Assembly (NCBI GenBank): GCA_020091685.1 | Contig: CM034607.1 | Span: 34,229,268 to 34,293,267, forward strand | DNA: 64,000 nucleotides | Source: Lutjanus erythropterus | Lineage: Eukaryota > Chordata > Actinopteri > Lutjaniformes > Lutjanidae | Direction of reading: 5' to 3' | Part shown: positions 14,276 to 61,355 of the stretch, piece after piece | How positions within the stretch are numbered: the stretch's first letter is position 1 | Layout of the letters: the number at the start of each line of letters is the position of its first letter | Position numbers and translations under genes: made by a program | The notes under the pieces: generated by a model | Databases searched by the model: none | Seen by the model: only the letters and a program-made list of their open reading frames with translations | Told to the model about the DNA's origin: nothing

Positions 14276-14324
<49 letters not shown>

Positions 14325-14471
14325 ACCTGTCGTGGCAGTGTGTATGCTGTCCACAGAGGCATGGCCAGCTCTTTGCTGTACCCACTGATGAACTCCACAT
14401 GATGAAGCAAACTGTACTGAGTGTCAAACATCACAGCTGGACGACCGAACGGGAGGTGGGTACTGTCTGCG

Positions 14472-14510
<39 letters not shown>

Positions 14511-23500: not shown

Positions 23501-26500
23501 CACAAGCAAAAGCAGCCCTTTTAAAGGAAACACTAACAAGTAGCTCATGTTTGTAGAATCCATGAGCTACGATCATCAGATTGTTTTGTTTTGGAAAACT
23601 TTGCTTAATGTTTTCAAGATGAAACTGCGATTACACTCTGTTCAACAGGCCACGGGCTAAATTAGCATCAGATGAAATTTAGCAGTCTGGCTAAAAGCTA
23701 CAGCAGAAAACACTTATCATGTTGTCTTCATGCAACCTTCTTTGTACTGGAGCTACTGTAGTACTGTGTGTACTATTCTTAATAAATTTAGTAGTAAAAA
23801 TGCAACTCTGCTTAGTGTTACTGATATTATCAAGAGTAGCAGCATCAGTACATCAGTACATGAGTGCATAAATAAACTTTCTTGACCATTTTTACTGCCA
23901 TTTCCTCATTATCTTATATTATCATGACAAGTGTTAAACACATGTAGGCAAATCTTAAATCTGCAGAATTTCATCCATAGTCATAGTTTTATTTATCTGG
24001 TGACCCAAATAAAATCTCCAGTGATCCACCTGTAGGTCACAAGCCACTCTTTGGGTATGACTGCACCAGAGGACCAAGTATGTATGAATCCGCTGCTGAA
24101 AGTAGAGCAACAAAGGCACTATTCTCCATCAGTGCTCAAAGTGAGCCCGTACTCACTGGTACACAGTAGTAGCACTCCTACATTTTACTCTTTGGTGTGC
24201 TGTGAATTTTTCTTGCAGACTCGTACTTCTCACAAACAGCCAGTGCTCTTTTTTTGTCCTTTTCATACAAAGTTCTCTGGGTGATTTAATAATAACCCTA
24301 CATAAACTGTTATTATGTGACCCTCACTGGTTCCCATCCTCTACTTTATCTAATTTCTACATCTGCATATGAATGCAGGATCTGAAGACAAATTTTAAAA
24401 TAGGAAGTTCTGGACAAGCAAGCTTTGATTGAATGCAGGTAAACAGTCTGTGTGAAGAGCAAAAGAGGCAGAGAGCACTTTCCAAAATACAGTATCAGAA
24501 ACCTTCAGCTAATGTCTGATGACTGACTTTTATATTCGCTTTTCAATATTTTATCACATGCAGATATCTGTTTGTCCTCCATCACAGCTCAAGATGCTCA
24601 TCAGACTGTAACAATGATCAGAAGAGAGGAGGTTTTGGCCCAGATATTTGTTATTCTGAGATCCACTGGATATACTGGAAGCCCAGTAACACTGGCTGCA
24701 GAGACTAAATAGCCGATGGGTTCTGAGATTGGCTTTTCTTGTCAAATCCTGCCCAACAAGTATGAACTGCAGGAGCAGCAAGCTAACATTAAATAGTCTG
24801 AGCGACATAAAGAAGGTGGTGATGAGGAGGTAATTATTTTATGTGACACAGTAAAAATAGAGAGAAGAGAAAGAATCCAGGGATTTCTCCATCCCGGCCT
24901 GATGGCTTCATTGCACAAAACACTAAAGCTTGTGCACAGAATCAGTTTTTTTTAGTAATGTTAAAGACATAACAAGATGAAAAACCACATAAAAGACGTA
25001 ACAAGTCAAAGAAGACATGATGAGAACAAAAACAACATTACAGATGTAACAAGATGAAAAACTAACAAGATGACAGACACGTAACAACGCTAAAAACTGC
25101 GTAAAGGAGGGATCAAGACAGGAGAGGGAGACTCGACCACGGAGAAAAGATGAGCGTCAGTCAGCTGAAACAAGACATAACAAGGTGAAAAAGAATATAA
25201 AAGACATAACAACAACAACACTAAAAACTAGGCAAAAGGTGTGAAAATACCGGAGGGGAGGACTCGACCACGGAGAAAAGGTGTCTTTTCCCTGAGCACT
25301 ACAACTAAAAGTCAGAGGTGTTTTGGGGTGAACTGTCCCTTTAAAATTACAGTGAAGTACTTAATAAAAAGAAACTATATATTTGTGAGGCTTTTTAAAG
25401 ATTTAAAACTTGTGTACGAGCCATTGGGCTCGAGTCTGAGAGTCACTAACAGGAGGTACGTCAGAAAGTATTGAGAGACGACTACCATACTGTTGGTTTT
25501 GATCTTTTCATGCTGACGAGAAAAATACGCTGCAGAATAATCTCAGCCTTGTCTTCGAAGATACAAGTAGGTACACACAGTACCCGCTTTCTCTCTGTCT
25601 ATTGATAATGTTAAACCACTGAACTGCAAAAACAACTAAATACACAAACTAGGTTCAAACCTAAAGCCAAACAGAAGGAATGAAATGGGATAAAAAGTTT
25701 GACAAAGTTTGACTGAATTGAAGTCATGGGGGAAAAGTGGCAGACTGGTTTTATTTAAGAGGTGCAGTCATTCTTGGTGGGAAAGCAAACAGGTATAAAA
25801 AATCCAGACGTCACAATTTTCCAAAAATCCTTTAAATCCTTCTTTGATCTGAACAAAAACTTAATCCCTGGCTTCTTGGCCAAAAGCCTGGTGCACCAAA
25901 GCCGTCTTTGTGATAACCTGCTAATCTATCAAACGGCCTCCCTGTCAGAGAATAACATGTTCCACAAGATAAAAACCAGGAGGAGTGTTTACGTCAGGGC
26001 GTCATCACACTGACCTGTTTTCAGGCAGTGCTCGTCGAAGTCGGAGCAGCAGCTGTAGTAGGTTTTACACAGATTGTCACACCTGCATCCTGGAGGTTTG
26101 GCCTCCTCCAGCTCAAAGCACCTCCCCTTGCAGGAGCCCGCTGAGCTGACCCACACTGAGTCGACTGGAGGGAGGAGAGGGCCACAGTGAGACACAACTG
26201 CTGCAAACACACTGCATTCATCTGCACAACTCAGACTCACACATAAACCAGATACAATACACCACTTTGTTCTTACTTGAAAAGAACTTTGATAACATCT
26301 TGAAAGGAGGATTCTGCAGGCAGCTTTGGTTTCTGTTCACTTCAATGCACAATGAACAAAACAAAGATTTAAATCTTTCTGTTTTATCAAGGTTTCCTTA
26401 GACCGGGCTGCCAAACAGTTATGTTTTCATTTAATGCATGAAACAACTTCACATGATCCTTTATTCCACATCCAGGTTTGCTTTTTGGTGGTCCTCTGGA

Positions 26501-32660: not shown

Positions 32661-32924
32661 GTATAGGCTATGGAGTGTAACCACTGAAAACACACATCAA
32701 AATCATCCATATGTTCCTGGCTGATGTTGGGGTTCAGGCTCAAACTGTACAGGCTACATGGGTAAGATACAGACACTACAGGACCTCTGAGGAAAAGGTT
32801 GTAGGGTTTCTGTTTAAAAAATGAAAAATCAGTCATTATCTACTCATCATGCTGACTGAAGGTCAGATTTACTTTTTAGTCCACAAACACTGCTGGAGTT
32901 TCTGGGAAAACAGCGATGCAGAAT

Positions 32925-33305
32925 CTCCCAAACAATGGAAGTGAATGGTGACCAGTTTCACAGAGCAAAACAAACAAACAAACAAACAAAAAAAAAAATC
33001 AAATGCTTCTACTGCTCATCTGGGGTCTAAAGCACCAACATGCTGCACTTGCCCACGGACACCATCACACCACACATCCAGCTCAGACAGTGTGCAAACA
33101 CCGTGAACATGGCTCTAAGCTAAGGATCTACAGTGAAGATTTATGTAGACATGAATGTAAATGGCGTCTTTCAAGTCAACTTGGCATGTCGGGGCTTTAG
33201 AAGACCTAGAGTTAAACCAGACAAAGCAGTATGGAGGCATTTTATCTTTTTATTCTGTTGTTTGAAAACTGTCACCATTCACTTCCGTTGTTTGGGAGAT
33301 TTTAA
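32925..33305. mobile_element. Inverted-repeat element inside copy 1
   Basis: Left arm AATCTCCCAAACAATGGAAG, then TGAATGGTGACCAG, is the reverse complement of right arm CACCATTCACTTCCGTTGTT, then TGGGAGATTT (33270-33303). Resembles a fold-back MITE; outer boundaries are uncertain. Confidence 0.7.
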
Positions 33306-36300
33306 TGAAGCATAAACAATGAATAGTACCACACTAACTGTAGAAATATTTGGCATGATGCATTATTATAGGTTACATGATTGCTGACTCCTTTGCAAAA
33401 TTACATTGATAGGCATGCGGTTGCTACTGAGTTTAGACCAGACCTGAACAAATGCAGCCCAATGAAAGTTTATGTTGTTCTTCTTCTACTTTTACTTTCA
33501 TTGCAACCTGTCTGCAGCATGCATGCATGGACATTGCCAACAAAATATTATTACAATTCAGAAAGATGACCAGTGGTAGAAGTGTTCTATATAGATTATA
33601 TAGAACAGATTTGGCCATTAGGATCTTATATCATTTGTGTCTGTACTCAGGTGAATGACTTCCCAGATCCACATCTGTGAAGCGGCCCTTCTTGTAAATA
33701 TGGATGCAGTTTCCCAACAAGAGACTTGTAGTAGGTTAGTGGAGCAGTCAGACAGAGATTGTTGACTTGTGTTTACATCAAAATTGTGACAGGAAGTTAA
33801 GAGACAAAAAAAAACAGACATATAAAAAATGCATATGACTGCATAATGTTGGCTCAAAATCACAATACACCACACTTCTGTGGGTGTGAACACCTGAAAG
33901 ATACCTGCAGCTGTGAGCTGAGCTGTGAAGACAAGTGACATTTCACTTTCCTCTGTAAACAAAGAGACAAAGACACCATGCTGTGAGCTCTCCTGTTGAA
34001 AGGTGTCTCTACAGCAGATAAATACCTCTCCAGCGCTCCTGCAAGACGCCTATCAGCCCTCATATTATGTTTGTGGTTTTGAAAGAATGAAAGCCGTAAC
34101 ATTCGCTTCTTTTCATAGCGCTGCTATCCAAACACATCAGGGCTTTTGAAGGCTCTGCTGTCTGACAGGCAGCACTCTGCCGGGAACATTTTGTTCATGG
34201 AGGGGAACAAATCTCTGAGCTTTGAAAGTGATCTGTACATCCATCACCTCGGGGAAACATCCTCATCTTACAAAGACCACACAGACATAAAGATTCACAT
34301 GTATGTGCACGCACACACGCGCAGAGGGCGGGCACATACGCCGAGCTTCACACGCATAAGATATTCAAAGACATGAACTGAAAGGAACAAAACATTTTGA
34401 AAGATCTGCGATGATTCACAGTTGTTTCTGAGGCCTGCTGAGCCATGTGTGTGTTTGTGTGTTGAGGGTGAATGACAAAGAACCAACGCTCAGACACACA
34501 CTCTGGCCTGAAGCAGATTACCTTCATAAGCCACAAAACAATCGATTGGCCGATGTCCCCATCACCTGAGGCCGTGATTAGCTGACTGATCCTGGCAGGA
34601 AGTCTGGCAACAGCGAGTTTCAGTGCACCTGGACTCAAACTATCAGCAGGTTGTGGACAGGTACGGTCAGCACCCATTCAACAACATCCACACCCTTAAG
34701 AAAAAAGCCTGAAAATCTTTGACCTTCTTTTCTCTATTTTTTTAAAGTGAATTTTAAGGATATTGTGAATAGAGTATTGTGTACTCTTGCAGCAGGTGTA
34801 ATACTGCTCGTTCTTGAGAATTGGGATGAAACCGTATTTTCACAGGGTTTTACTCTTCAATTATGCCGGAAAATATTTCTTGAAAGATTAAACTTCATTG
34901 ATTTTCACAGCATGGTCATAATGAGCAGCCACTTTATTTTTAAAGTTGCTCAGAGCTCTCTTAAAACAAAGATGATTGTAAGCACATACATTACAATATG
35001 AAGGTATTGTTAGTTCCCAGTTCTACATTTTTTTAGTTTTGTATTTCTAGTCTCCCTCCTCTGGGTAGCCAGGAATACGCTAGATAGTGTTTTTTGTCAC
35101 CCAAAAGCTATGTTTTGGCCAACAAAGCTATACCTACAGGCTAGGTGGTGATACACAGCAACATCAGAATCTGACTACTTAGGTAAACTGGGTAAATGTT
35201 GGCCTAGTCTCTAAAGAGACAAACCTTTTTGGAGCTGTAAGTATTCAGTTCTCAAGTCTTACACCAGCACTGCAGGCTTTTTCTTAGTCAGTATAGCAGC
35301 ACTGAGGAAGTTATTGCTTCAGTTGATGTAATTTACTAATGGCTAAACAAACACATGAAAAGTGGTGAATTTTCCCTTTAATTTTCAGATCCACTTTGTT
35401 TGAACCAATCCGACAGCTTCCAGTCAAGTTGCAGGACTGAACCACGACAAACTAACTAGGGTGGCGGACGGACGGTGCCAGTGTCCATCCTGATGGCTGA
35501 CAGTCATCGACTGCTGAGCTACATTGTGATTTACAATCCTTCTGTGTTTGAGGTAGTTTGTACCATCAGAACTGCTGTAGAACGATTTGTATTTTCACCA
35601 TCTGCCTTGAAAAAGCATAATAATGGTTCAAGTAAAGCTTCACGGTTGCAAGAGGTCACATTTTGTTGCTTTGTTACACTCTGTGTGATCAAAGCACTGA
35701 GAGATACAGCGCCTGAGGAAGAGCTTACACCGACGTTAAGCTGCTCCCTCAGTCACCTGCAGACCAGACTGACTTCACAGCAGCTGTAGTTAAAGTTAGG
35801 AAATCAGTTTTAGAAATAATAAAGCAACCATCTGATTGGTTGTTGGAATCATACAATACTTTCCCAAATGTAGTTTTATTGGTATATAGGACATCCTTCA
35901 TCCAGTGTCTGTGCACTTTCCAAGTTTCTCAAACCTGAGATGGTGCGACAGCGATTTACCACATGAGCTCACTGTGAAGAAGTCGGGTTGGCACCAAACT
36001 AACACATCTCAACACTGAATCACTCATCAGTGTCTCTGACAAAATCACAAAAACAGTGTGTGACTTGAAAGTCCTCTGTCAGCTCAACAAAAAGTGTGTA
36101 ATGTTCTGGTTAAATCTGAAAGAAGAAAAGCAGAAGCAGCCATGATGCAATAGTAACAGACAGACAGATGCTGAGTTATTAACCGTACTTAAATATAAGC
36201 AACTTTATGATGAATCAGCAACAGACAGAACTTACTTGGAATCTGAGATGGAGATTAAAGACAGTAAATAAACATGATGTGAGTGTGACAAATCTGTATG

Positions 36301-37939
36301 AACTGGATTCTCTGTCTCAAAAGAGGCAAGAAGGAAGAGAAGAAGAAGTTAGGTTGGAAGAATGATTTATTTTGTGCATGCAGCATTTTAGACATAAGAT
36401 TCCTGTTTATTTTCACATATAGACACTGTAACCAGGCAGCTCTCAAGCTTGAATTGACATGAAACTAATTCAAACACAACTGAAGTATTGGCACAAAATG
36501 TGTTGAAAATAAGTTTTAGTTCTCAGATAAAATGCAAAGCTTATAAACTGTGTGTAAAAACTGCATCCAGTGACATCATAGTGGAAGTCACTGATGTGGG
36601 AAGAGCTACAGGCTCTTCTAGTCTTTGCCTCATGGGGAGCAGCACCTAACGCTATATTCATGCTAACAAAGCAATAAGCTAGAGTCAGCAATCAGACTTA
36701 CCTCTTTTATACGGCTCTGCTCAAAACCTAGAGTGCATTACTAAATCCATGTTCAAGAGGGAAAGAAAGCGCTGCAGTTATCTTGACTGTGATTAGCCAA
36801 AGACGTGACATCTTTGCCAAAGGTATTTGGCGAAAAAGTTGCGAAACATGACAGCGACCAAACAGTCTTTGGTCTCACTCCAGTCTGTGGAAAATTGTGC
36901 TGGCCACTGGTTCCCGTGTCCTCTTTGGATCAACACATCTACACATGAATGACATGTTTTAATTTCTGCAAGTTTTGCAAAAATTGGCTAGTTTGTAGGA
37001 AAGTGTGCGATTAGGTTTAGGTACAAAATTACTTGGTAGATTTAGAAGAACAATGACAGTTTATGGTTACTAAGCAGCGACAATGTTGGCTCTCTGTGGG
37101 TTACTGCTGTGGGCGGTTGAGAAGCAAGAGTGAAGGTAAATCTGCTTTTAATCCCAAAGTATAAAAACAAACTGAGCTGTCTTGTAGCTTGTAAACAGGT
37201 CCGCGACTCCTCCATAGAGTCACCGCTGTAGGCAGGTTAAGAAGTAAAGTAAGATAAATCTGCATTTTAATCTAGTTTAAATAACAAACTCTGAGCTGTC
37301 CTGTGGCCAGTAAACAGGTCATAACTCCTCCGTGGGTGGCTGCTGAGCAGATTGAGAAGCAGGAGTGAAAGATAATCCGCTTTTAATCCCAAAGCTTAAA
37401 AACAAACTGTGAGCTCTCCAGTTTACCTATAATATTATTTTCTGGTGAGGACAGGTTGGAAAAGAGGCTGACTTGATGAAGCTAGAATCAACTTTTTATC
37501 AATTAAAAACCCACATTAATTGTATTTGGCCTCCTGGGGATGAAACTCCTTACCGTACTGACCTTTATGTGAAGGCCTGTTACGTGTTGACAAATGTGCT
37601 ACTAAGTTGCTTTTTATCAAGTCGACACAGATCAACCTCTCAGCGTCCCGTTCTAATGAATGTGTGTCCATTCTTCACTCTTCTTTTAGCTGGTGTTTGA
37701 GCTCAGGACACGTCGTCCTCCCATAAACTGTGGTCAGAGTGTCACACACACAACCTGATAAATGTGTGATTCTGCAGTGTTGGACCAGATGAGATGATCC
37801 AAGACTTTGCTGTATGCTCCTGCACAGAGTTTGAAGTTCAGAGTGGGACAGCACTCAAATACATCATGAATTCAGAACCATAATGTACTTTGGACAAAGT
37901 TAATATTTGCCCCACTATGCTCAAACACACACTCAACAC

Positions 37940-37954
37940 CACACACACACACTA

Positions 37955-37993
<39 letters not shown>
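37940..37993. repeat. (CA)n microsatellite, copy 1
   Basis: Interrupted CA run, counterpart of 45577-45672. Confidence 0.95.
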
Positions 37994-37994
<1 letters not shown>

Positions 37995-38285
37995 CACCAC
38001 TGCCTGTTCAATGTTCACATGTCCCAATTAACATACAGTAAATGTGCCACAGTGCAACATTTGTGTACATAGAGAGCATTTCTGGTTTCAGTATGAGATG
38101 GTTTGTTGTGATTTGTGTTTATGGAAAATATAGACACTCATCATTTTTATTATTATTACATATACATATTTATAATCTCTTATCTTAGATTTTTTTTTCC
38201 CTGTATATTTCTATTTCTGATGCTTACTTTTAATCATATTAGTTTTAATTTATTTCAGATTATCCTTGAAATATAGCCTGAAAAG

Positions 38286-38288
38286 AAA

Positions 38289-38330
<42 letters not shown>

Positions 38331-38332
38331 AG
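38286..38332. repeat. (GA)n microsatellite, copy 1
   Basis: GA run, counterpart of 45963-46038. Confidence 0.95.
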
Positions 38333-40349
38333 GTCAATCAGGAAAAGCACAAGCTGTTTATTTATTCATCACATTTCAAACTTAGAGAAGAATCAAAGTG
38401 GACAAGCAAATTAAATTAGATTTTAAATGTAACAATTAAGTTAAACAATATAAATACAGTTGAAAGACAGTTAATCAGACAGATTGTTGTGTACAGTGGT
38501 TGTTTTGACTCACTCTTGTCTCTGGTTCTTCTGAGGAACAGATTGGTAGCGTAACAGGACGTCAAACAGGTTGGAGATAAACGGTTTTAGGGAGGAAGAG
38601 TGGTATCTCTATGACTTCCAGTTTAATCTGTTTAACCCACAAAATTCAAACTTGTTAGATAAACATTTATCTCTGTACTTCCAGTGAACAATCAGTTGAT
38701 GACCTCATTCTTTCAAGACAGAAAGTACAGTTGTTTTGTTCCTCTTCCAGAAATGACATTGATATATTTTTCATTTTTGTAAGTATTGATATAATTTTCC
38801 AGGGTACAAAAGCTGTTTTTCTGCCTCAACTGACCTTTCCCCTGTTGGTAAACATAAGTACTAAGTTTCATCATACAATGCACTGACAATGTGTAAGACT
38901 AATAATCAGTGATGGATTGATCTCTGGATCATCATCTCTGTTACTCTGAACAGGTCATCATTGCATCATAAAAATAATAAAGCCTAATTTTGTTTCTGAA
39001 GATTTTGATTCAAGAAGTTATTTTATGCATGTAGCCCAAAATATTTTAGATTGGTGTAATTTTGCCTTTAGTTACTCCCACGCTGCTATCTATTTCATGT
39101 GCAGGGCTTTAGGCATGAAAGAGAAAGCTTCAGAAAAATGCTTACTGAAGAGCAAGAAGACAAAAGAAAAGAAGGCAGCAAGGTGAGGTGAGAAAGGTTG
39201 AACCTGAATGTGTTGGAAGCTTTTCTCCAGCAGAGAGCAGCATTATCTCTGCTACAGGAAACAGGAAGCGAGAGATAGAGCGAGGAAGAAACATATACAA
39301 GAGTTTATATTGTGGCTGAGTCAGTGATCTATTTAGATTCCTTCTGAAAGCCTACTTTTTTACATTGAGTCTTTCATGATTTTACCTGTTTTTATTTCTT
39401 TAAGTGTTTTATTTTCCTATTCCTGCCATTTTACTGGACCTTTGTTATCTGTTTTTATGTGACTTTAACTTTACATGTACTTGCAGCTATTCCACTTTCT
39501 TTTGATAATAGTAATAATAATCTTTGTTTATAGAGCACTTTTTCAAAATTAACTTTACAAAGTGCTTTTCAAAGGGCAGCAAATAAAACAAATATCCTCA
39601 ACATGAATCATAACATATCAATTTAAAACAACCCGATTCAGACTTTTGCAGAAAAATGCGCTAGTGTCTTCAGAAAAAAAAAAAAAAAAAAAACAGAAAA
39701 TGGATCATATGACTCAGTTTTGATCTCTCACACTGACTTCTTTCTGCCAAACAGATTTTAAAATGCTGTTGTTTGGTTTCATAAAAAGTGTGATTCTGGG
39801 TTTCTGACTAAAACTTTTTACATCAAGGACCCCTAAACTGACACAAAATTTTGTCCTGGGTTGTTTGATAAAACTTTCACTTAGATGTTTTGTTACAGAA
39901 AGCGTATAAACCCATGAAAATACTCTATGAAGGCCTCTTATAGATAGTCTGCACAGTCTTGCAGATTGTTCTGAACCAACAAACAGTAATATTGAGTAAT
40001 ATCAGAGAGAGAGAGGGAGAGAGGGAGAGAGAGAGAGAGAGAGAGAGAGGCACTCAGAGGGACGACAAGGGTTGTATAATGTGCAGAATATGGAAGTGTA
40101 ACCACTGAAAACACACATCAAAATCATCCATATGTTCCTGGCTGATGTTGGGGTTCAGGCTCAAACTGTACAGGCTACATGGAGTGAAGATACAGACACT
40201 ACAGGACCTCTGAGGAAAAGGTTGTAGAGGTTTCTGTTTAAAAAATGAAAAATCAGTCATTATCTACTCACCCTCATGCTGACTGAAGGTCAGATTTACT
40301 TTTTTTAGTCCACAAAACACTGCTGGAGTTTCACAGGAAAACAGCAATG

Positions 40350-40745
40350 CAGAATCTCCCAAACAATGGAAGTGAATGGTGACCAGTTTTCACAGAGCAA
40401 AACAAACAAACAAACAAAAAAAAAAAATCAAATGCTTCCATACTGCTCATCTGGGGTCCGAAAGCACCAACATGCTGCTCACTTGCACCCGCACACCGTC
40501 ACACCACACACATCCAGCTCAGACGGTGTGCAAACACACGTGAACATGGCTCTAAGCTAAGGATCTACAGTGAAGATTTATGTAAAGACATGGTGTAAAT
40601 GATGTCTTTCAAGTCAACTTGGCATGTCGGGGCTTTAGAAGACCTGGGTTAAACCAGACAAGCAGTATGGAGGCATTTTATCTTTTTATTCTGTTGTTTG
40701 AAAACTGGTCACCATTCACTTCCGTTGTTTGGGAGATTTTTAATA
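40350..40745. mobile_element. Inverted-repeat element inside copy 2
   Basis: Same arms as in copy 1: left arm at about 40350-40395 and right arm at about 40708-40742. Confidence 0.7.
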
Positions 40746-43700
40746 TGAAGCATAAACAATAGAATAGTACCCACACTAACTGTGAGAAATATTTCTGGCA
40801 TGATGCATTATTATGGGTTACATGATTGCCCTGACTCCTTTTGCAAAATTACATTGATAGACGTAAACGGTTGCTACTACTGAGTTTAGACCAGACCTGA
40901 ACAAAATGCAGCTCAAAAAGAAAGAAAGGTTTATGTTGTTCTTCTTCTACTTTTGCTGCTACTTTCATTGCAACCTGTCTGCAGCATGCATGCATGGACA
41001 TTGCCAACAAAATATTAGCCCACAATTCAGAAAGGTGACCAGTGGTAGAAGTGTTCTATATAGATTATATAGAACAGATTTGGCCATTATTAGGATCTTA
41101 TATCATTTGTGTCTGTACTCAGGTGAATGACTTCCCACATGATCCACATCTGGAAAGAAACGGCCCTTCTTATAAATATGGATGCAGTTTCCCAACTTTA
41201 AGAGACTTGTAGTAGGTTGAGTGAAGCAGTCAGGACAGAGATTGTTGACTTGTGTTTACTCAAAATTGTGACAGGAAGTTAAGAGACAAAAAAGGAACTG
41301 GAACATATAAAGAAATGCATGAGCTGCATAATGTTAGGCTCGAAATCACAAGATACACCACATTACTTCTGTGAGGTGATACAACACCTGAAAGATACCT
41401 GCAGCCCGCTGTGAGCTGAGCTGTGAGAGAGACAAGTGAACATTTCACTGTTTTCCTCTGTAAACAAAGAGACAAAGACACCATGCTGTGAGGAGAGCTC
41501 TCCTGTTGAAAGGTGTCTCTACAGCAGATAAATACCTCTGCCAGCGCTCCCTGCAAGACGCCTATCAGCCCTCATATTATGTTTGTGGTTTTGAAAGAAT
41601 ACCACAGAAAGCCGTAGCATTACGCTTCTTTTCATAGCGCTGCTATCCAAACACATCAGGGCTTTTTGAAAGGCTCTGCTGTCACTGACAGGCCGCACTC
41701 TGCCGGGAACATTTTGTTCATGGAGGGGGGAACAAATCTCTGAGCTTTGAAAGTGATCTGTACATCCATCACCTCGGGGGAAACATCCTCATCTTACAAA
41801 GACCACACACAGACATAAAGATTCACATATGTACGGGCACGCACACACGCAGAGGACGGGCCGCACGCGGAGCGCACACACGCAAAGATATTCAAAGACA
41901 TGAACTGAAAGGAACAAAACATTTTGAGAGATCTGAAACGATGATTCACACTTGTTTCTGAGGCCTGCTGAGCCGTGTGTGTTTGTGTGTGTTGAGGGGG
42001 AATGATAAAGAACCAACGCTCAGACACACACTCTGGCCCCTGGCGCAGATTACTTTCCATAAGCCACAAAACAATCCGATTGGCCGATGTGTCCCCATCA
42101 CCTGAGGCCGTGATTAGCTGACTGATCCTGGCAGGAAGTCTGGCAACAGCTTGAGTTTCAGTGCACCTGGACTCAAACTATCAGCAGGTTGTGGACAGGT
42201 ATGGTCCAGCACCCATTCAACAACATCCACACCCTTAAAGAAAAAAGCCTGAAAATCTTTGACCTTCTTTTTCTCTGTTTTTTTAAAGTGAATTTTAAGG
42301 ATATTGTGAATAGAGTATTGTGCTCTTGCAGCAGGTGCAGTATTTTATAGCACTCGTTCTTGAGAATTGGGATGAAACCGTATTTTCACAGGGTTTTTAC
42401 TCTTCAATTATGCCGGAAAATATTTCTTGAAAGATTAAACTTCATTGATTTTCACAGCATGGTCATAATGAGCAGCCACTTTATTTTTAAAAGTTGCTCA
42501 GAGCTCTCTTAAAACAAAGATGATTGTGATAGCACATACATTACAATATGAAGGTATTGTTAGTTCCCAGTTCTACACATTTTTTTAGTTTTGTATTTCT
42601 AGTCTCCTCCTCTGGGTAGCCAGGAGGACACGCTAGATGAGTGTTTTTGTCACCAAAAGCTATGTTTTGGCCAACAAAGCTATACCTACAGGCTAAGGTG
42701 GTGATACACAGCAACATCAGAATCTGACTCGCAGGTAAACTGGGTAAATGTTGGCCTTTAGTCTCTAAAGAGACAAACCTTTTTGGAGCTGTAAGTATTC
42801 AGTTCTCAAGTCTTACTGCCAGCACTGCAGAAAAAAAAACTTTCTTGGTCAGTATAGCAGCACTGAGGAAGTTATTGCTTCAGTTGATGTAATTTACAAT
42901 GAATTCTGGCTAGACACCCACATGAAAAGTGGTGAATTTTCCCTTTACTTTTTCAGATCCACTTTGTTTGAACCAATCCGACAGCTTCCAGTCAAGTTGC
43001 AGGACTGAACCACGACAAACTAACTAGGGTGGCGACGGACGGTGCCAGTGTCCATCCTGATGGCTGACAGTCATCGACTGCTGAGCTCTACATTGTGATT
43101 TAAAATCCTTCTGTGTTTGAGGTAGTTTGTACCATCAGAACTGCTGTAGAACGATTTGTATTTTTCACCATCTGCACTTGAAAAAGCATAATAATGGTTC
43201 AAGTAAAGCTTCTCACAGGTGCAAGAGGTCACATTTTGTTGCTTTGTTCACACTCTGTTGTGATCAAAGCACTGAGGGGATACGGCGCCTGAGGAAGAGC
43301 TTACACCGACGTTAAGCTGCTCCCTCAGTCACCTGCAGACCAGACTGACTTCACAGCAGCTGGGTTAAAGTTAGGGAAATCGGATTTTAGAAATAATAAA
43401 GCAACCATCTGATTGGTTGTTGGAATCAACATGTACTTTTTCCCAAATGTAGTTTTATTGGTGTATAGGACATCCTTCACCCAGTGTCTGTGCACTTTCC
43501 AAAGTTTTTCTCCAAACCTGAGATGGTGCGACAGCGATTTGACCACATGAGCTCACTGAAGAAGTCGGGTTCGGCACTCAAACTAACACATCTCCAACAC
43601 TGAATCACTCATCAGTGTCTCTGACAAAATCACAAAAACAGTGTGTGACTGAAAGTCCCTCTGTCAGCTCAACAAAAAGTGTGTAATGTTCTGGTTAAAT

Positions 43701-45576
43701 CTGAAAGAAGAAAAGCAGAAGCAGTCATGATGCAATAGTAACAGACAGACAGATGCTGAGTTATTAACCGTACTTAAATATAAGCAACTTTATGATGAAT
43801 CAGCAACAGACAGAACTTACTTGGAATCTGAGATGGAAGTTAAAGACAGTAAATAAAACATGATGTGGTCAGTGACAAGAAATCTGTATTCTGATTCTCT
43901 GTCTCAAAAAAGGGCAAGAAGGAAGAGAAGAAGAAGTTAGCAAAGTTGGAAGAATGATTTATTTTGTGCATGCAGCATTTTAGACATAAGATTCCTGTTT
44001 ATTTTTCATATAGACACTGTAACTTGAAGGCAGCTCTCAAAGCTTGAATTGACATGAAACTAATTCAAACACAACTGAAGTATTGGCACAAAATGTGTTG
44101 AAAATAAGTTTTAGTTCTCAGATAAAATGCAAAGCTTATAAAAAACTGTGTAAAAACTGCATCCAGTGACATCACAGTGAAGTCACTGATGTTAAGGAAG
44201 AGCTACAGGCTCTTCTAGTCTTTGCCTCATGGGGGCAGCACCTAACGCTATGTTCATGCTAACAAAGTAATAGTTAGAGTCAGCAAATCAGACTTACCTC
44301 TTTTTTATGGCTCTGCTCAAAACCTAGAGTGCATTGTACAAATCCATGTTCAAGAGGGAAAAGAAGACGCTGCAGTTATCTTGACTGTGATTAGCCAAAA
44401 GACTTGTGACATCTTGCCAAAGGTATTTTATTGTGAAAAAGGTTGCGACATGACAACAGCGACCAAACAGTCTTTGGTCTCACTCCAGTCTGTGGAAAAT
44501 TGTGCTGGCCACTGGTCCCCGTCACAACTCTTTGGATCAGCACATCTCACATGAATGACATGTTTTGATTCTGCAAGTTTTGCCAAAAATTGGCTAGTTT
44601 GTAGGAAAGTGTGCGATTAGGTTTAGGTACAAAAATTACTCGGGTAGATTTAGAAGAACAATGACAGTTTATGGTTACTGTAAAGAGCCGAGCAATGTTG
44701 GCTTCTCTGTGGGTTCCTGCTGCGGACGGGTTGAGAAGCAAGAGTGAAGGTAAATCTGCTTTTTAATCCCAAAAGTATAAAAAACAAACTGAGCTGTCTT
44801 GTAGCTTGTAAACAGGTCCGCGACTCCTCCATAGGTCACCGCTGTAGGCAGGTTAAGAAGTAAGAGTAAAGATAAATCTGCATTTTAATCCTAGAAGTTT
44901 AAATAACAAACTCTGAGCTGTCCTGTGGCCAGTAAACAGGTCCGCAATTCCTCCGTGGGTGGCTGCTGCAGACAGATTGAGAAGCAGGAGTGAAGATAAA
45001 TCCGCTTTTTAATCCCAAAAGCTTAAAAAACAAACTGTGAGCTCTCAGTTTACCTATAGGGCCATTTTTCTGGTGAGGACAGGTTGGAAAAGAGGCTGAC
45101 TTGATGAAGCTAGAATCAACTTTTTTATCAATTAAAAACCCACATTAATTGCTTTGTTGGCCTCCTGGGGGATGAACCCTCCTTACACACGTACTGACGT
45201 ACTGTAATAGGGCCTTATAAGGTCGTGTTGACAAATGTGCTACTAAAAAGTTGCTTTTTTACACATCAAGTCGACACAGATCAACCTCAGCGTCCCGTTT
45301 CTAATGAATGTGTGTCCATTCTTCACTCTTCTTTTAGCTGGTGTTTGAGCTCAGGACACGTCGTCCTCACCAGTAAACTGTGGTCAGAGTGTCACACACA
45401 CAACCTGATAAATGTGTGATTCTGCAGTGTTGGACCAGATGAGATGATCCAGACTTTACTGTATGCTCCTGCACAGAGTTTGAAGTTCAGAGTGGGACAG
45501 CACTCAAATACATCGTAATTCAGGAACCATAATGTACTTTGGACAAAGTTAATATTTGCCCCACTATGCTCAAACA

Positions 45577-45604
45577 CACACCCACACTCACACACACACA
45601 CTGA

Positions 45605-45672
<68 letters not shown>
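45577..45672. repeat. (CA)n microsatellite, copy 2
   Basis: Longer than the copy 1 counterpart. Confidence 0.97.
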
Positions 45673-45674
<2 letters not shown>

Positions 45675-45962
45675 CTGTTCCAATGTTCACATGTCCCAAT
45701 TAACATACAGTAAATGTGCCACACAGTGCAACATTTGTGTACATAGAGAGCATTTCTGGTTTTCAGTATGAGATGGTTTGTTGTGATTTGTGTTTTATGG
45801 AAAATATAGACACTCATCATTTTTATTATTATTACATATACATATTTATAATCTCTTATCTTAGATTTTTTTTTCCCTGTATATTTCTATTTCTGATGCT
45901 TACTTTTAATCATATTAGTTTTAATTTATTTCAGATTATCCTTGAAATATAGCCTGAAAAGA

Positions 45963-45972
45963 AAAGAGAGAA

Positions 45973-46038
<66 letters not shown>
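45963..46038. repeat. (GA)n microsatellite, copy 2
   Basis: Longer than the copy 1 counterpart, with single AAA interruptions. Confidence 0.97.
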
Positions 46039-46041
<3 letters not shown>

Positions 46042-49000
46042 AGGTCAATCAGGAAAAGCTGCTTTATTTATTTATTCATCACATTTCAAACTTAGAGAAG
46101 AATCAAAGTGGACAAGCAAAGAAAATTAAATTAGATTTTAAATGTCATTAAAAGTTATGAGCAATATAAATACAGTTGAAAGACAGTTAATCAGACAGAT
46201 TGTTGTGTGCCGTCATTGTTTTGACTCCTCTTGTCTCTGGTTCTTCACAGAGGGAACAGATTGGTGACGCCAACGCAGGACGTCAAACAGGTTGGAGATA
46301 AACGGTTTTAGGGAGGAAGGAGTGAATCCTGGTATCTCATGACTTCCAGTTTAATCTGTTTAACCCACAAAATTCAAAAACTTGTTAGATAAAACATTTA
46401 TCTCTGTACTTCCAGTGAACAATCAGTTGATGACCTCATTCTTTCAAAGACAGAAAGTACAGTTGTTTTGTTCCTCTTCCAGAAATGACATTGATATATT
46501 TTTTTCATTTTTTATTAAGTATTGATATAATTTTTTTCCAGGGTACAAAAAAGCTGTTTTTCTGCCTCAACACTGGCGCCCCCTGTTGGTAAACATAAGT
46601 ACTAAAGTTTCATCATACAATGCACTGACACAATGTGTAAGACTAATAATCAGTGATGGATTGATATCTGGATCACATCATCTCTGGGCCGCTCAGAACG
46701 GGTCATCATTGCATCATAAAAATAATAAAAGCCTAATTTTGTTTCTGAGGATTTTGATTCAAGAAGTTATTTTATGCATGTAGCCCAAAATATTTTAGAT
46801 TGGTGTAATTTTGCCTTTTAATTAACACTTTAATAACCACTGACTGACTATTTCATGTGTGGGGCTTTAGACATGAAAAGAGAGAAGCTAGAAAAATACT
46901 TACTGAAGAGCAAGAAGACAAAAAGAAAAAAGAAAAGGCAACAAGGTGAGGTGAGAAAGGTTTAACCTGAATGTGTTGGAAGCTTTTCTCCAGCAGAGGG
47001 CAGCATTATCTCTGCTACAGGAAACAGGAGGCGAGAGACGGAGAAATGAGGAGAAACATATACAAGAGTTTATGTTGGCTGAGTCAGTGATCTATTTTAA
47101 ATTCCTTCTGAAAACCTACTTTTATTGGAGAGTCTTTCATGATTTTACCTGTTTTTATTTCTTTAAGTGTTTTTATTTTCCTATTCCTGCCATTTTACAC
47201 TGAGTTATTTTGTTATCTGTTTTTATGTGACTTTCCAACTTTACTTGTGTACTTGCAGCTATTCAGCGCTACTTTGATAATAGTAATAATAATCTTTATT
47301 TATAGAGCACTTTTCAAAATTAACTTTACAAAGTGCTTTTCAAAGGGCAGCAAAATAAAACAAATATCCTCAACATGAATCATAACATATCAATTTAAAA
47401 ACAACCCGACCAGACAGCAGCTGATTCAGAACGATGCCGCTCGTGTCTTCAGAAAAACCAAAAAAAAAAAAAAACAGAAAATGGATCACGTGACTCCAGT
47501 TTTGAGGTCTTCACACTGACTTCTTTCTGCCAAAGAACAGATTTTAAAATGCTGTTGTTTGGTTCATAAAGTGTGATTCCTGTGGTTTCTGACTAAAACT
47601 TTTTCACATCAAGGACCCCTAAACTGACACAAATTTTGTCCCTGGGTTCCCCATCTGATAAAACTTTCACTTTTAGATGTTTTGTTACAGAAAGTGTATG
47701 AAACCCATGAAATAAATGGTCATATATTTATCATTGTCCTGCTCATGTTTGGAAACCAGGAGCAGCTCTACTTTTTAAATGCCATTATCTCCCGATCACA
47801 AGTTAATTTATTTTTTGTCCTACATCTTGTTTTCTCATGATACCAGGTTAATTATTTAATCATCTCAAAATAACAAAGCTTATTTTTTGTGATAATGCGT
47901 TAATTTATTTTGTTATCTTAAGTCAACAAAATTGTCATCTTTTTAGTCAAAATTAAACATGCAGCTTTTACTTTTTAATGCACCACATATCTGGAACAAA
48001 TTCCCATAAAACTGCAGATCTGCTGTAACTAATCTTATTTTTTATTTTCTTCATGCATTATATTTTTTACCCGATGCACTTTGATAATTCCTTATTATTG
48101 AAATGTTCTATATGAATAACCGTGCCTTGCCTGTATATGAATATCATCATTTTGCAGAAACTTGTAGTTCTATATGTTTGTGTACCCAGTTATGTGAGGA
48201 TCAAATTCATAATCTATGTGATCCTTCGTATGTGAGAACTTCAGCACTGTAAACCTGCGTGTGTAATAAACACACAGACTGAATCGATGGTTGAAGATAT
48301 AGACGTCATGTTGAAGGTTCTGTTAAACACACTCTGTATATTGATTGTGCTGTTCTCCGTCCTGCAGCCTGTGAGCTCATTGATCCACGAGATCAATAAG
48401 ATGCTGCGGCATTAGATCATCAATCTGCTGAGTTTATGAGAACAATGTTACATCATCAGTGATTATAATGTTGCAGCAGATCCTCAACATCTTTCATTTT
48501 AGTTAAAAGCAATTCTTCAGTTATCAAACTGAGCTTAAGATGCACTGTTTTGGAAATATTATGATATTATGACACTGAGGGAGCTAAAAAGAAAGTGAGA
48601 GTTTAGTGACTGACTCTGGATCAATCAGTTTATCCGTGTTATTGAATGATCACCATTAAACATTAGCATCAGTCCAATTACCTGCTGCTAGAGAAGAAAA
48701 ATCAACCAGGAAAAACACTCACTAATATGCATCGACTCTTTTAAATAATATAAACTATATGTGTAACATAAATAAATTTAAAAAATCCTTACACAACGGT
48801 ATTGTGACCACAGGCGAATGATAGAAAACTTGTTTATTGTCAAGGCAAATTAATCAAGTTGACAGATTAATCGATGATGAAAATAATCAGTAGTTGCAGC
48901 AAAACTCGTCACACACTGATGTTTAGTCTCCGCCCCTCGGCGACTCATACCAACGCCTTTTTAACATGTGGTTAACGTTGTGAAATGGTTGCAGTTTGGG

Positions 49001-54645: not shown

Positions 54646-54664
54646 ATGGGACCTCGAACAGCAG
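54646..54664 (+). CDS. DEPTOR-like exon 1 (private start, residues 1-6)
   Basis: ATG GGA CCT CGA ACA GCA G, followed by a perfect donor GTAAGAA. The start has G at -3 and G at +4. Phase 1 is exactly what the next exon needs to restore the DEPTOR frame. An out-of-frame ATG with a weak context overlaps just upstream (54639). The first exon is inferred from phase and donor, not from homology. Confidence 0.6.
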
Positions 54665-57600
54665 GTAAGAACTGCTTCAGTTCACATCCTGAACTCTACA
54701 AATGTCTCAACATCACTGAGGTCAGGACTCCGAGTCTTTCTGTCCTCAACAAATATTCAAATATGTATGTGATTTGAAGGCACTACTCATTTGTTTGAAT
54801 CAAGAAACTGGGATCAGATTTTTATTGGTTAACTGACAGTTAACTTTAAACTTTAAATTAATTTATAAATGAAATATGGAGGTGAAGTCTCTCCTCTTCC
54901 AGTGGACCACCACCAGACCTTAATTTCAGGGTTTTGGGGGGGAGGGGGCGTTACTTTAAATGATACTTTAATGTAATCCAAATAACACAATATTAAAGTA
55001 GCTGATTATTTTCTGTTACTTTTGGATTAGCTCAAAATGATTAAATGATTAATTAATCCTGTCCAAGTCTTTCCTGTAATGATTATTTTTATTATTTATT
55101 AATCTGTTGATCATTTTCTCAATTAATTTATCTCCTGTTTGGTCCATAAAATGTCAGAAAATGATGAAAAAAGCCAAAGGTGAGGTCCTCAAATGTCTTG
55201 GCCACATTCAAGAATATTAAAAGATAATTAAAATGATTGATCAAGCTGGATGCAAGTTCATTTAATAGTCGATTAATAGTAGATTAATCATTGCAGCTTT
55301 ACAGTTTGCAACTTGCAATGACCTTTTTGTGACAAACATCAGATGTGTAATTCATGGCACCATTCAGAAGTGATAACAAAAAAAAAAAAAAACTAAATGG
55401 AACTCGTCCCACACAGCCAGTGTAAGCGAGCAGGTGCTGGCTGGTCACAGGAACATCTCAGGTGAAACATCAAACCTGAAGAAGCCACAAGCAAAACACA
55501 TTCTTCGCTCTTAATAAAGTCACAGTAAAGTCAGTTGAGTGTGTCGCCATCGTACGCATGTTTTCTGTGATCAGGTCCCACAGGGGACGGCAGAAGGTGA
55601 GGAACTTGACCTCTGCGTTAACTCCTGAAACGTGTGTGTGGACTGAACAAATCACTGCTGTTCATAATGAGGGACTTACTCAGTAAAAAAAATCCCTTCG
55701 AATAATATCATCTTTAAATTGATCATGTTTGACTTTAGTTCCATCTCTTTGTGATGATGACAGTCAGAAGTGTGAGAGTGTGAATGATTTTAATAATAAT
55801 GTCAGTGATGTATTATTATATATGTGTGGTGGAACGAATCACTGACTAACCACAGCCGAATGTTGTTCCAAAAAGTCAACTCTAAACTTCTGATTTGACA
55901 TTTCCTTTTACACTTCTATTGCATGAATAGAGAGCTTAAAGTGGCGTCTCAAATATTTCAGTCCTGGTTTGACCTTTTGACTGATGATAACAGCAAGTTC
56001 AGTTTAATGCTACAAATCCCAGAATCAAGGCAGCAAAGCAAACTGACATTTTAATGAAGAAGTCAGGTCATAATATCTTTTGCCTCTCTCTTTCCATCAT
56101 TCTGTGAGCAGCCATGATCTGACCTGATGCTGCACGCGGTAGGTCACAGTGAAAGGAGGAGGTTACCTCAGTGAGGAGCCTGTCACCTGCAGCTCCTCAT
56201 GTAACAGCTCACTGCTCCCTTACACCCCGACATCTTTCAAACTGATCTGCTGTCATAAAAAATGATGAAAATGGCCACCGTCTTGTATTGTAGATACTTT
56301 TTTTGATGAACAATAGCTGTAAGGTAAGGTACAGTAACCATGTCTACGAGAGGAAGCAATGAGTTAAATATTATCCTGAAGAGGAATTCTTGTTGCTGTG
56401 ATGAGACAAAGGTCTTGACACGTTTCATCAAACAGTTAACAAATGCACTTTATTATTTTATGATCATTTTATTATCTGGGTGTATGAGTTCTTCTTTTCT
56501 GAGTCACTGTGGTCATCCTGTCACAACATGACCCAATAAAAATGAGTGTCTAAAGAGAGAGAGAGATAAGATTCATGCACTGTGTCCACTGCATAAATAT
56601 AAATGGTTTTTCATTCAATATTTTCAAATTTGTAAATCTTTGCCACAGAAGTAAAAGAGCTCATGTAGACTGACTGTGAACAGATGAGATGAGCGCTCTG
56701 CAGTGATGTTATTGGCTGATACAGAACAGGATACAGGAAACATCAGCTGTTATCAAGACACATAGACCTGATTGTTGGAAGTTGATTTGAGGAAGTTAAA
56801 CACAAAACTGTGTCAGTTTTGATTAAGATGGGATTTTTTTCAGCTCTCTAAACATCTGACGTATTTCATTACCAATTAAATCTCTTAACCAAAGTTCTTC
56901 TCTTTGTTCTTAGTAAATTGTTAACACGGTTACTAGCTTTGTGTGTCGATGCTATCTTCTTTGATATTTCCTGATCAAACTGGTTTCATCAAAAACATAT
57001 ATGCCACCTCATTCACATTAAATACTTCAGGGACAAATAAGCAGTTACCAGAGATGGTAATAAGCAGAGAAGAGGAAGTAACTGATTACAAATACTCAAA
57101 TTACTAAAACTAACTATTACTAGCTAACTTTTATGAGCAGATTTTCAAGTCTGTATTTTTATTCATACTTCAGTATGCATTAGAAGATGTAATCTACTTA
57201 GATACCTTTAAAATCATAGTTGAATACTGAGTACAATTTTAATTAATATCCAAAACTCTCATCTGCATTTTAACAGCCAATCAGGTGATCTGATCACAAA
57301 CAATGACACCTGAAAACAAAAACACACAGACGAAAAACAAAACACTGCAGTGGATGTTTATGACTAATCACTGATTGATTAATTGCCATTAAGAATTTAA
57401 CCAATAAAAAATGTATTCATAGATATTTAATCAATAGTCATGGCAGTAACTGCACCTCATTTGAAATTATTTTGTCTGGTGGAACCGTTTGTTCAATGAG
57501 GAAAATTAAACTCAGACTTGGAATTAGAAAAGAAAAGACAAAAACAAAAACAGAAAAAAATGAAAATGAGGGAAAATGTGTTTTGCATCTTATAAATTAT

Positions 57601-58193
57601 TGATGATTAATCAGTTGTTAACATTTTCAACTATTGCTTCAGGAAAATGCACAAAATTTGCAGCTCTAGTTTGGAGAGGTGACTGTGACATCAACAGATA
57701 AAAGTAACTAATACTCTGAGTAGTTTTTATGACAAATACTTTATACTTTTACTTAAGCACATCAGCACTTTTACTTGTAATTGAGTAATATTTTAGCAGT
57801 ACAGCAGCAGGTGTACTTGAAATTTTCAGTACTCTTCATATATGTAGAAAAAGCATTTCAGTTCGCTAATCCACCTTGACATCTGAAAGTAACCCAACGA
57901 TGCTTTACTTGCCACAAGCAAATATTCCATGGTTTAAAAAAATTGGGAAACTTGTGCAAAATGTCTGTATGCTTCAGCTGCAGCTTTATAACATTTCACT
58001 GAAACACAGCTAACAAGGAGGTGCTGCTTCTTTCTGCAGCGCTGCAGAGTGAGTGATGACAAGAGCTGCTTTTCATTTCTCAGAAGCAGCTGTGGTGTTG
58101 ACATTTTCTTATGTTGAAATCAAATTTAATCATCTTATCCTCGATCATTTCTGTGTTTACACTGAAGAGGTAAAACCAGCTCCGTGGAGATTC

Positions 58194-58236
<43 letters not shown>

Positions 58237-61200
58237 TTAGGGCTGCATGATATGGCAAATAAAATCTTTCATTTAAACTGAAAAAAATGTTGACATGATG
58301 ATGATGATGTGACACTTGTTGAGTTCTGTACCAAACAAACATGGTTTTCTCACCTCTCTGCAGCACTACAGCCAAAAAGAAAACAATACAAATATAATTA
58401 AAAAAATATATATAACAAACAAACCTCAAAGCAAACAAACCGGAGTACTTCTTAATCTTCAGATCAATAGTAGAGTGTTTAAACCAGTCAGAGGGGCAGT
58501 GGACTCACATCTACCTGCCTCAGAGTAAAACAGGTGTTGGTCAGACCCTCCTAGCCAACTCTGTGGCCTCTGTGTCTTTTTTTTTAAATCTCTGATATTT
58601 AAGGAGGCGCCGGCTGTTATCACGGCCTGCTTGAACAGGAACAGAACTGCTGAGAAGTTGAATTGAGGAGGTCAAACTGGGTCAGTTTTGTTTCCAAGCT
58701 CTCCTCCTCATCACTTCTCTTCCCTCTCCATCAGTGGCTCCTTCCAAGGAGATGAAGGCGCTCGCAGGAGGAGGATGCGCAGGTCAGGGAGGAGCCCGGC
58801 TGAGGAGCAAGAGTGATGGCAGCAGATACAGCAGGAGAGGAGTCTGGGATCTACCCAACAACTCTTCCTCCTCCTCCTCACCAGTGCTCTCCAACCCCAA
58901 ATCAGGTAAAAAAACAAAAAAAAAATCTGTTCAGACTGAGGGAGCTAGTTAAAGGAGGAATCTGTGATATATTTACTGTAATGAATCAGGAAATAACAAT
59001 GAGATGTCATCAGATTATTGAAATACTCACTCACAGAGCTGCAGTGAAATTTCTGTTCTGGTTAGTAACTTGTGTTTTTGTTTGTTTGTTGTTTTTATTA
59101 TAGTTAGATCGTGTTTATGAGTTGGAAGAAATCATTAATCATCTTTTAGGAGGAGTAGATGTTTATTACAGTTGAATTAGGCAATATTTTAATGGAGTTT
59201 GGCAGGCAGTGAAACAGGCAGTGAGACAGGCAGTTTTCCTGCAGCCTGTCTGAGCTTCCTCAAGCCTGGGGAGGACAAGGTGGGAGAAAACATCTGACTG
59301 AAACCATAAATCACTTATTAAATGGGATTTTAACCTATTTAATAAACAACCCATATCTCCCATTAAACTGTCACTAGACAGTGCTGATCAAATATGGATG
59401 AAGACTTTGAATGCTCATTTTTGTGCACTGTTTAGATGTAATACAAGAAAGTTTGTGACCAGGCTGCCATTTTTTCCAGCTTGAAAACTGAAGTGCTAAA
59501 ACCAAGCACCAACTAATTTTAATCTTCACAACACAATGTTCGTTCTCTTCATATCTAATCAACGGTACGCCATAAAAAAGAACCAATAACAATTTGATTG
59601 AAAGGGAATCCCACAGACCCCGGTTTTCTCTGGTCATGTGACACAAATTTCAAAATTATTGTTTTCTTTCTGCTGCATAGACGGCACAGTTTTATGAAAA
59701 GACCATCCTCTTTAAGATGAGATCTTTTTGTTCAGATTTTAAAATAAAACAGTCTTTGAGTTATGTAGATTTGTGGTTGTTTAGGTAGAGAGATTGTAAA
59801 AACTTTTTTGTTCCATTTTCTGCCTGCTTTGTGATTTGCCATGGTCAAAATAAATAAATAGTGTATAGTATATTATTTTTGACATTTTTAATTTTGTTTC
59901 ATTTTCAGTCTTAAAGAGACCAGTGAGCACAGAGGAGCTGCAGAGACCAGGAGGACCATACATCAAGAAGTCATTTACAGTACGTTAACAACTGAGCTTC
60001 TTAGTTAACAGCCAACAGAGCAGGAAAAAAAACTTTTTATGAAGCTGAGAAGAGACATGAGACTGTAATTTAAACTTTATACAACCGGCCCAAATCAGCT
60101 CAACATCTCTGACTTAGTTTTGGTGTGAATTGCAGAGTTTTGGAGATTTCGTCCTTCTCTCCAATACAATGCAAGTAAATGTCACTAATTCTGTTGTGCT
60201 CAAAGCACCAAAGAATACTAGAATAGAACTAGAATAATAATAGGAACTACTTTCTTTCTACCGAACCACACCCAGCAGCCGTATGACCAGCAGAAGGAAA
60301 CACGTATCTGCTCGTGGACGAGAGGTGTGTCCTCATGACAGCGCGGGAAGTAAACATTGATGCCTTGTATGTGGTGATACCGCTGGCGGTTATAGTTCAA
60401 TAGAAAGAAAATAGTTCCAACATAAAACTGCAGGTAAGAAGAAAACTGTATTTTTAATTTTGGGGTGAACTGTCTCTTTAAGATACTCCCATACTGCTGT
60501 ACAAATGTTGTGGGTAAAAAAGTACTATATTGGCCTTTGAGATGTGGCAGAGTAGAAGTATAAAGTTTCATAAAATTAGTAAAAAGTAGGCTATAAGTGC
60601 CTTGAATTTGCACCTTTTTGCTCTTTTTCTTTTGCAAAATTGTATCACTATCACGTTCTATTTATTGTTTGCATTTAATTCACAGTTTTCTTTCTGGTGT
60701 CAGTAGAACAGGTGTACGGAAGGTCTCTCCCTCGTACCGTCTCTCCGACAGTTGAATCCTGTCTGACTGACGTCTCTGTGTGTTTCCAGATTGTCGGCGA
60801 TGCCGTGGGTTGGGGGTTTGTGGTGAGGGGGAACAGGCCGTGTCACATCCAGGCTGTGGAGCCCTGCGGTCCAGCTGCTGCTGCTGGGATGAAGGTAGGC
60901 ATCATCAGAAATGCAGTCAGCGAAAATGGTTATTCTACTGATATATCTGAAAGGAGTGAAAATATGTACAGAGGCTCCAGATTTTGTACACAGGAATGAG
61001 CTGAATTTGTCAGAGAAGTTGTTTTTTTCCACTAATTTCAATAGAGTATGTAGTGAGACATATAGTGGCCGATAGAGGAGCTGCAGATTAGTGATTTATT
61101 CATTTTTTAAGCAGAATATCCTGCATAATTTGAATCTAAAAGCAGCATATGAAACGGACCTCGTACACTGAAGTTTACCTGTGAATTTGTCTGTCACTCG

Positions 61201-61355
61201 CTCATTCATTTTCTTCTTACCTGCAGGTTTGTCAGTTTGTGGTTTCAGTCAACGGGATCAACGTTCTCAACCTGGACTACCGGACCGTCAGCCACCTGAT
61301 CCTAACGGGACCCAGAACCGTGGTGATGGAGGTGATGGAGGAGACGGAGCACTGA
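54646..61355 (+). CDS. DEPTOR-like gene encoding only linker and PDZ domain (five exons, 164 residues)
   Basis: DEPTOR binds and restrains mTOR; in mammals it has two DEP domains, a long linker and a PDZ domain (about 409 residues). Here exons 54646-54664, 58735-58905, 59909-59979, 60790-60894 and 61227-61355 chain in phase to 495 bases including the stop. The product is MGPRTA plus a Ser-rich linker (7-64), the pre-PDZ segment LKRPVSTEEL (65-87) and a PDZ domain (88-160) that reads IVGDAVGWGFVVRG, AGMKVCQFVVSVNG and VMEVMEETEH. PDZ and pre-PDZ are near identical to mammalian DEPTOR. No DEP exons were seen upstream, and the SSGYFS phosphodegron is not conserved. It could be an alternative-promoter isoform whose DEP exons I missed, or a truncated paralog. 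Confidence 0.85.
54665..58734 (+). other. DEPTOR-like intron 1 (about 4.1 kb)
   Basis: Bounded by GTAAGA and TCCATCAG. Contains AT-rich dispersed repeats and a (GT)n run at 58194-58234. No further exon recognised. Confidence 0.6.
58194..58234. repeat. (GT)n microsatellite
   Basis: Pure GT run in intron 1 of the DEPTOR-like gene. Confidence 0.97.
58735..58905 (+). CDS. DEPTOR-like exon 2 (residues 7-64): mTOR-binding linker
   Basis: Acceptor TCCATCAG, donor GTAAAA. Begins VAPSKEMK, equivalent to mammalian SVSPSKEIK, and ends SSPVLSNPKS, equivalent to SSPPVLCNPKS. The middle is diverged (SDGSRYSRRGVWDLPN), with a run of six serines. Confidence 0.88.
59909..59979 (+). CDS. DEPTOR-like exon 3 (residues 64-87): pre-PDZ segment
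   Basis: Acceptor TTTTCAG, donor GTACGT. Encodes LKRPVSTEELQRPGGPYIKK, matching mammalian LKRPVTSEELLTPGAPYARK. Confidence 0.92.
60790..60894 (+). CDS. DEPTOR-like exon 4 (residues 88-122): PDZ domain, first half
   Basis: Acceptor TTTCCAG, donor GTAGGC, exactly 35 codons. Encodes IVGDAVGWGFVVRG, PCHIQAVEP and GPAAAAGMK. It has the GWGF carboxylate-binding loop characteristic of the DEPTOR PDZ. Confidence 0.96.
61227..61355 (+). CDS. DEPTOR-like exon 5 (residues 123-164 and stop): PDZ domain, second half
   Basis: Acceptor CTGCAG. Encodes VCQFVVSVNGINVLNLDYRT, then HLILTGPRTVVMEVMEE and TEH before TGA at 61353. Same end as mammalian DEPTOR (VMEELEC) within a residue or two. Confidence 0.96.
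   Translation, partial: VCQFVVSVNGINVLNLDYRTVSHLILTGPRTVVMEVMEETEH

Follow-up and report, generated by a model that had tools for sequence, protein, structure and literature searches.

In the consulted parts of PMC8439649, DEPTOR is anchored tightly on the FAT of mTOR by its PDZ, which is mildly activating without DEP contact; inhibition comes from the DEP contact, and full-length DEPTOR benefits from both. The DEP tandem binds the FAT and the FAT-kinase crevice, while the FRB is touched by the linker (PMC8439649 and PMC8439657, both in part) at four patches, comprising residues 228-232, 244-249, 261-264 and 280-285 (PMC8439657). The initial annotation of the locus described here had placed the PDZ/linker on the FAT region and the DEP tandem on the FRB region, where these papers place the linker instead. 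The Kd of the PDZ on activated mTORC1 is given as 0.6 uM and the IC50 of full-length DEPTOR as 30-50 nM (PMC8439649). Among the constructs in the consulted parts of PMC8439657, the PDZ and a short-linker PDZ (residues 305-409) were non-inhibitory and slightly activating, and the long-linker PDZ (228-409) was the minimal inhibitory unit; the same paper cites work in which overexpressed human PDZ alone was reported to inhibit cellular mTOR (Peterson 2009). Whether the isolated DEPTOR PDZ is an inhibitor or a mild activator of mTOR is thus answered differently by cellular and in vitro experiments, and a natural gene for little more than the PDZ would allow its effect to be tested in an animal. 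Human DEPTOR also occurs as an isoform that lacks the N-terminal DEP (PMC8439649, in part), and a beta-TrCP degron lies at DEPTOR residues 286-291 (PMC8933699, in part). A literature search on teleost, paralogous or duplicated DEPTOR, with subscription papers largely outside its scope, turned up no title describing a DEPTOR gene without DEPs.

A DEPTOR-like gene was located on the plus strand of a 64,000-nucleotide window of Lutjanus erythropterus (CM034607.1, here C17, positions 34229268-34293267, plus strand). At a probability of roughly 55%, the gene is read as a DEP-less DEPTOR paralog, most likely half of a pair left by the teleost whole-genome duplication, and its product would be a stable mTOR-FAT ligand competing with full-length DEPTOR. 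The features of the window are as follows; C5 denotes the contig carrying a complete DEPTOR gene in the same genome.

8360-26183, minus strand: exons of ENPP2 (autotaxin), the divergent neighbour, found by tblastn with human ENPP2
54646-54664, plus strand: candidate private first coding exon, with a strong Kozak ATG and the donor GTAAGA, phase 1
58735-58905, plus strand: linker exon, homolog of C5 DEPTOR exon 6, without the canonical degron and with an ATG in frame at 58753
59909-59979, plus strand: exon of the PDZ N-terminal extension (VLKRPVSTEELQRPGGPYIKKSFT), tblastn with human DEPTOR E 3e-6, and spliced chain
60790-60894, plus strand: PDZ exon A (IVGDAVGWGFVVRG...GMK), tblastn with human DEPTOR E 4e-17
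61227-61355, plus strand: PDZ exon B and stop codon (VCQFVVSVNG...MEETEH, stop), tblastn with human DEPTOR E 7e-17

When the five plus-strand exons were spliced, all were open, the four introns were all GT-AG, and the coding length was 495 bases, comprising 164 codons and the stop. The product consists of DEPTOR linker and PDZ. Its top PDB match was the DEPTOR chain 7owg_O (E 3e-58), with product residues 49-163 aligned to chain residues 294-408, and by this match it has a DEPTOR-type C-terminal PDZ; Pfam PDZ models matched it below their curated cut-offs (PDZ_6, E 3.7e-5). A coding scan of 58.7-61.3 kb gave the linker exon as its highest-scoring candidate. The acceptor phase of this exon equals that of exon 6 in the complete C5 gene, downstream of the C5 DEP exons, a comparison made within this genome. 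Splicing and the PDB match therefore confirmed the five-exon chain, splice sites, phases and 164-residue linker-plus-PDZ product proposed in the initial annotation.

DEP exons were sought by tblastn of human, C5 and C2 DEPTOR (C2 being the contig of a third DEPTOR-like gene) against 124 kb around the C17 gene, a stretch free of N, in which all DEP-region matches had E values of at least 3.8. Against the 64-kb window alone the lowest DEP-region E was 2.7, on the minus strand and with a stop inside. Across the genome (937.6 Mb, 444 contigs) the Pfam DEP family gave 22 matches, with none on C17. A genome search with human DEPTOR, run exon by exon with only the best candidates scored, found, on C5 and C2, exons for both the DEPs and the PDZ, and on C17 only PDZ-side exons; there were three DEPTOR-type PDZ sets (C5, C2, C17) and two DEP sets (C5, C2), and no third DEP set was among the 25 matches found over the 444 contigs. 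The human query matches the PDB alignment over residues 294-408. As a positive control, DEP exons were recovered on both C5 and C2 by the same searches. The two N-terminal DEP domains that characterize DEPTOR were thus not found at the C17 locus, nor was a DEP relic detected there at the protein or DNA level. The earlier statement that no DEP exons were seen between ENPP2 and 58.7 kb holds over the whole 124 kb, and the tblastn search for DEP domains proposed with it, against scaffold and genome, gave sets on C5 and C2 and none near the C17 gene.

With relaxed thresholds, the nine best candidates of the coding scan on the C5 gene included six of its seven internal exons, portions of its two terminal exons and one stray. 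Between 26.5 and 58.7 kb of the window the scan gave two non-DEPTOR strays, scoring 14.7 and 8.6, and no convincing candidate for upstream exons of another gene fused to the C17 gene. It is very improbable that DEP exons of the C17 gene exist and were missed, whether highly diverged, far off or lost in assembly. In favor of such exons, the 71-base exons of both the window gene and the C5 gene were overlooked by the scans, the genome search scored best candidates only, the higher stray outscores several true C5 exons, and the lower one is near the weakest recovered C5 exon (8.8); the higher stray nevertheless falls in a low-complexity ER-repeat frame, and the tblastn E values, the Pfam count for C17 and the lack of a third DEP set all argue against them.

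The initial annotation had left two origins side by side, a truncated ohnolog and an alternative-promoter isoform. Because no DEP exon was found nearby, the idea that the C17 locus holds a full-length gene with such an isoform was rejected; because, in addition, the genome holds a complete DEPTOR on C5 (nine exons, 395 residues, with DEPs and degron), the truncated ohnolog is favored. The third gene, on C2 (11724720-11728641, minus strand), is compact and more distant, encodes both DEPs and the PDZ in 395 residues, and is possibly an older duplicate. Over 103 PDZ residues, identity was 86 for C17 and C5, 84 for C17 and human, 89 for C5 and human, and 67 for C17 and C2, so that by raw identity the C5 PDZ is nearer to human (89/103) than to C17 (86/103). 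A four-protein PDZ tree (C5, C17, C2 and human) placed C5 and C17 together with modest support (bootstrap 75). Both C5 and C17 carry a set of ENPP2 matches, and C14 and C6 have ENPP2-like matches that are weaker or partial. Since ENPP2 is on both chromosomes and the PDZ tree groups the two genes, the DEP-less C17 gene is most likely a duplicate of the complete one on C5, with a pair from the teleost whole-genome duplication as the simplest reading of these sequences. The TAF2 matches (17/17) were confined to C5, which fits loss of one duplicate. On C5 the distance from ENPP2 to DEPTOR is 15 Mb, and synteny with C17 is incomplete.

Compared with complete C5 DEPTOR, the C17 gene is alike in its PDZ, its short-linker extension and the phases of its last four exons, but is without the DEP tandem, the first part of the long linker and the canonical degron. 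The C2 gene shares the DEPTOR exon order and the PDZ, but retains both DEPs. In the human isoform lacking the N-terminal DEP, DEP function is likewise reduced in a naturally occurring product, but one DEP is missing there, whereas neither was found in the C17 gene. The constructs 305-409 and 228-409, as given in the consulted parts of PMC8439657, also combine PDZ and linker without DEPs; the C17 product differs in coming from a genomic gene, in starting near human residue 264, between the two, and in carrying an insertion.

The C17 frame joins DEPTOR at that residue and carries a 10-residue insertion in the linker relative to human. As residues 228-263 of the long linker are absent, two of the FRB-contact patches and most of the third are lost; the fourth (280-285) has diverged. 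Human DEPTOR has SSGYFS as its degron and C5 has SSGYYS; in C17 the canonical form is absent, with a degenerate DGSRYS nearby. The degron loss and the C2 gene go beyond what the initial annotation contained. For the FAT-contact segments (taken from the consulted parts of PMC8439649 and PMC8439657), identity of C17 with human was 4/5 at 304-308, 5/5 at 338-342 and 4/5 at 358-362, and 12/17 over the extension 309-325. Judged by sequence, the mTOR FAT-contact residues thus appear mostly to have been kept. The linker has RLRSKSxG in common with 124-base repeats located at 37 and 45 kb, but its derivation from them was rejected, the matches (22-23 bases, E 0.29-0.77) being taken as chance.

The candidate first exon encodes M-G-P-R-T-A and the first base of the following codon, and its phase 1 suits the linker exon. 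It was the sole candidate running from an ATG to a strong phase-1 donor within 48.0-58.7 kb. In 200 dinucleotide shuffles, at least one donor-only candidate occurred in 45%, and in 10% when a strong Kozak was also required; as the true first exon it is therefore plausible but unproven, and not clearly above chance. If translation began within the linker exon, at its in-frame ATG (58753), nearly the same product would result, and from either start the predicted protein is PDZ-only, of about 150-164 residues. Another ATG, in weak context and out of frame, lies at 54639, 7 bases ahead of the candidate start codon. Descent of this exon from an ancestral exon 1 was not supported, C5 exon 1 ending in phase 2 and that of C17 in phase 1. 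Around the ATG the two genes have only GAGAGATGG in common, a score equalled by 36/500 shuffles; over 1.2 kb of their 5' regions the best local score was 32 (equalled by 1/100 shuffles), at positions that differ between the genes, and no significant collinear similarity of the first-exon region to the C5 5' region was found.

Over the PDZ, the NG86 method gave dN 0.091 and dS 1.45 between C17 and C5 (dN/dS about 0.06), and third-position GC of the PDZ was 0.66 against 0.39 for GC of the window. The dN and dS values, with the identity to C5, indicate that the C17 PDZ is under constraint, part of which may be inherited from a full-length past, the comparison resting on one genome. At the C17-C5 differing sites where one of the two agrees with human, C17 had 8 private changes and C5 had 3. 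This faster change, together with the rebuilt linker, a first exon that may be chance and a gene known here from genomic sequence alone, would suit a young decaying duplicate, with DEP exons recently deleted, promoter lost and PDZ exons not yet degraded. We consider such decay unlikely, in view of the open exons, the intact GT-AG introns, the low dN/dS, the third-position GC and the failure to detect a DEP relic at either level.

The preferred reading, a retained competitor of full-length DEPTOR, would operate as follows. The C17 protein would bind the mTOR FAT, in mTORC1 and mTORC2, through its PDZ; it would be unable to apply the DEP-dependent allosteric brake; with the canonical beta-TrCP degron absent, it would avoid mTOR/CK1-driven turnover; and it would hold the anchor site against full-length DEPTOR, so that mTOR would stay free of inhibition or be mildly activated. 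With the braking part and the disposal tag both gone, the C17 copy may weaken the brake and not apply it. The behavior of the published constructs and the missing majority of the linker FRB contacts lead to the prediction of a FAT-binding, non-inhibitory, longer-lived competitor; non-inhibition is only a prediction because more linker is kept than in 305-409, and 228-409 inhibits. The competitor idea in the initial annotation accordingly agrees with the consulted parts of PMC8439649 and PMC8439657 on FAT binding, lack of inhibition and mild activation, and is at odds with the PDZ inhibition reported from cells (Peterson 2009). Given 0.6 uM for the PDZ and 30-50 nM for the full-length protein, a PDZ-only competitor must be abundant. 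Degron loss might supply that abundance, and the affinity gap is a real weakness of the competitor model. Still more tentatively, the retained duplicate could serve as an anti-DEPTOR, lacking brake and disposal tag, that holds the FAT anchor and keeps mTORC1 and mTORC2 active against DEPTOR damping; if true, domain loss would have converted a kinase inhibitor into its own competitor.

An improbable alternative is that the PDZ-only protein is made but acts outside mTOR, for example through a free canonical PDZ groove that takes PREX2 or other ligands. In the mTOR complex this groove is left empty (PMC8439649, in part) and an interaction of PREX2 with the DEPTOR PDZ is cited in the consulted parts of PMC8439657, but the mTOR-contact segments are largely kept in C17, the unusual 304-308 extension included.

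In the neighborhood of the gene, the 3' end of ENPP2 runs past the lower edge of the window, and its last exon was found outside. A second, more divergent ENPP2-like exon set lies beyond it in the same orientation (C17 34141328-34188940, minus strand), which suggests a tandem ENPP2 copy. About 23 kb downstream of the C17 gene, an FN3-type exon resembling the COL14A1 N-terminus was matched at about 84716-84835 in window coordinates (plus strand; 40% over 40 residues, E 1.3e-5). In the interval from ENPP2 to the DEPTOR-like gene, a stretch of about 7.5 kb is duplicated in direct orientation (window 32674-47097), its copies near 32.7-39.3 and 40.1-47.1 kb, with the listed blocks mostly 86-100% alike and one at 60%.
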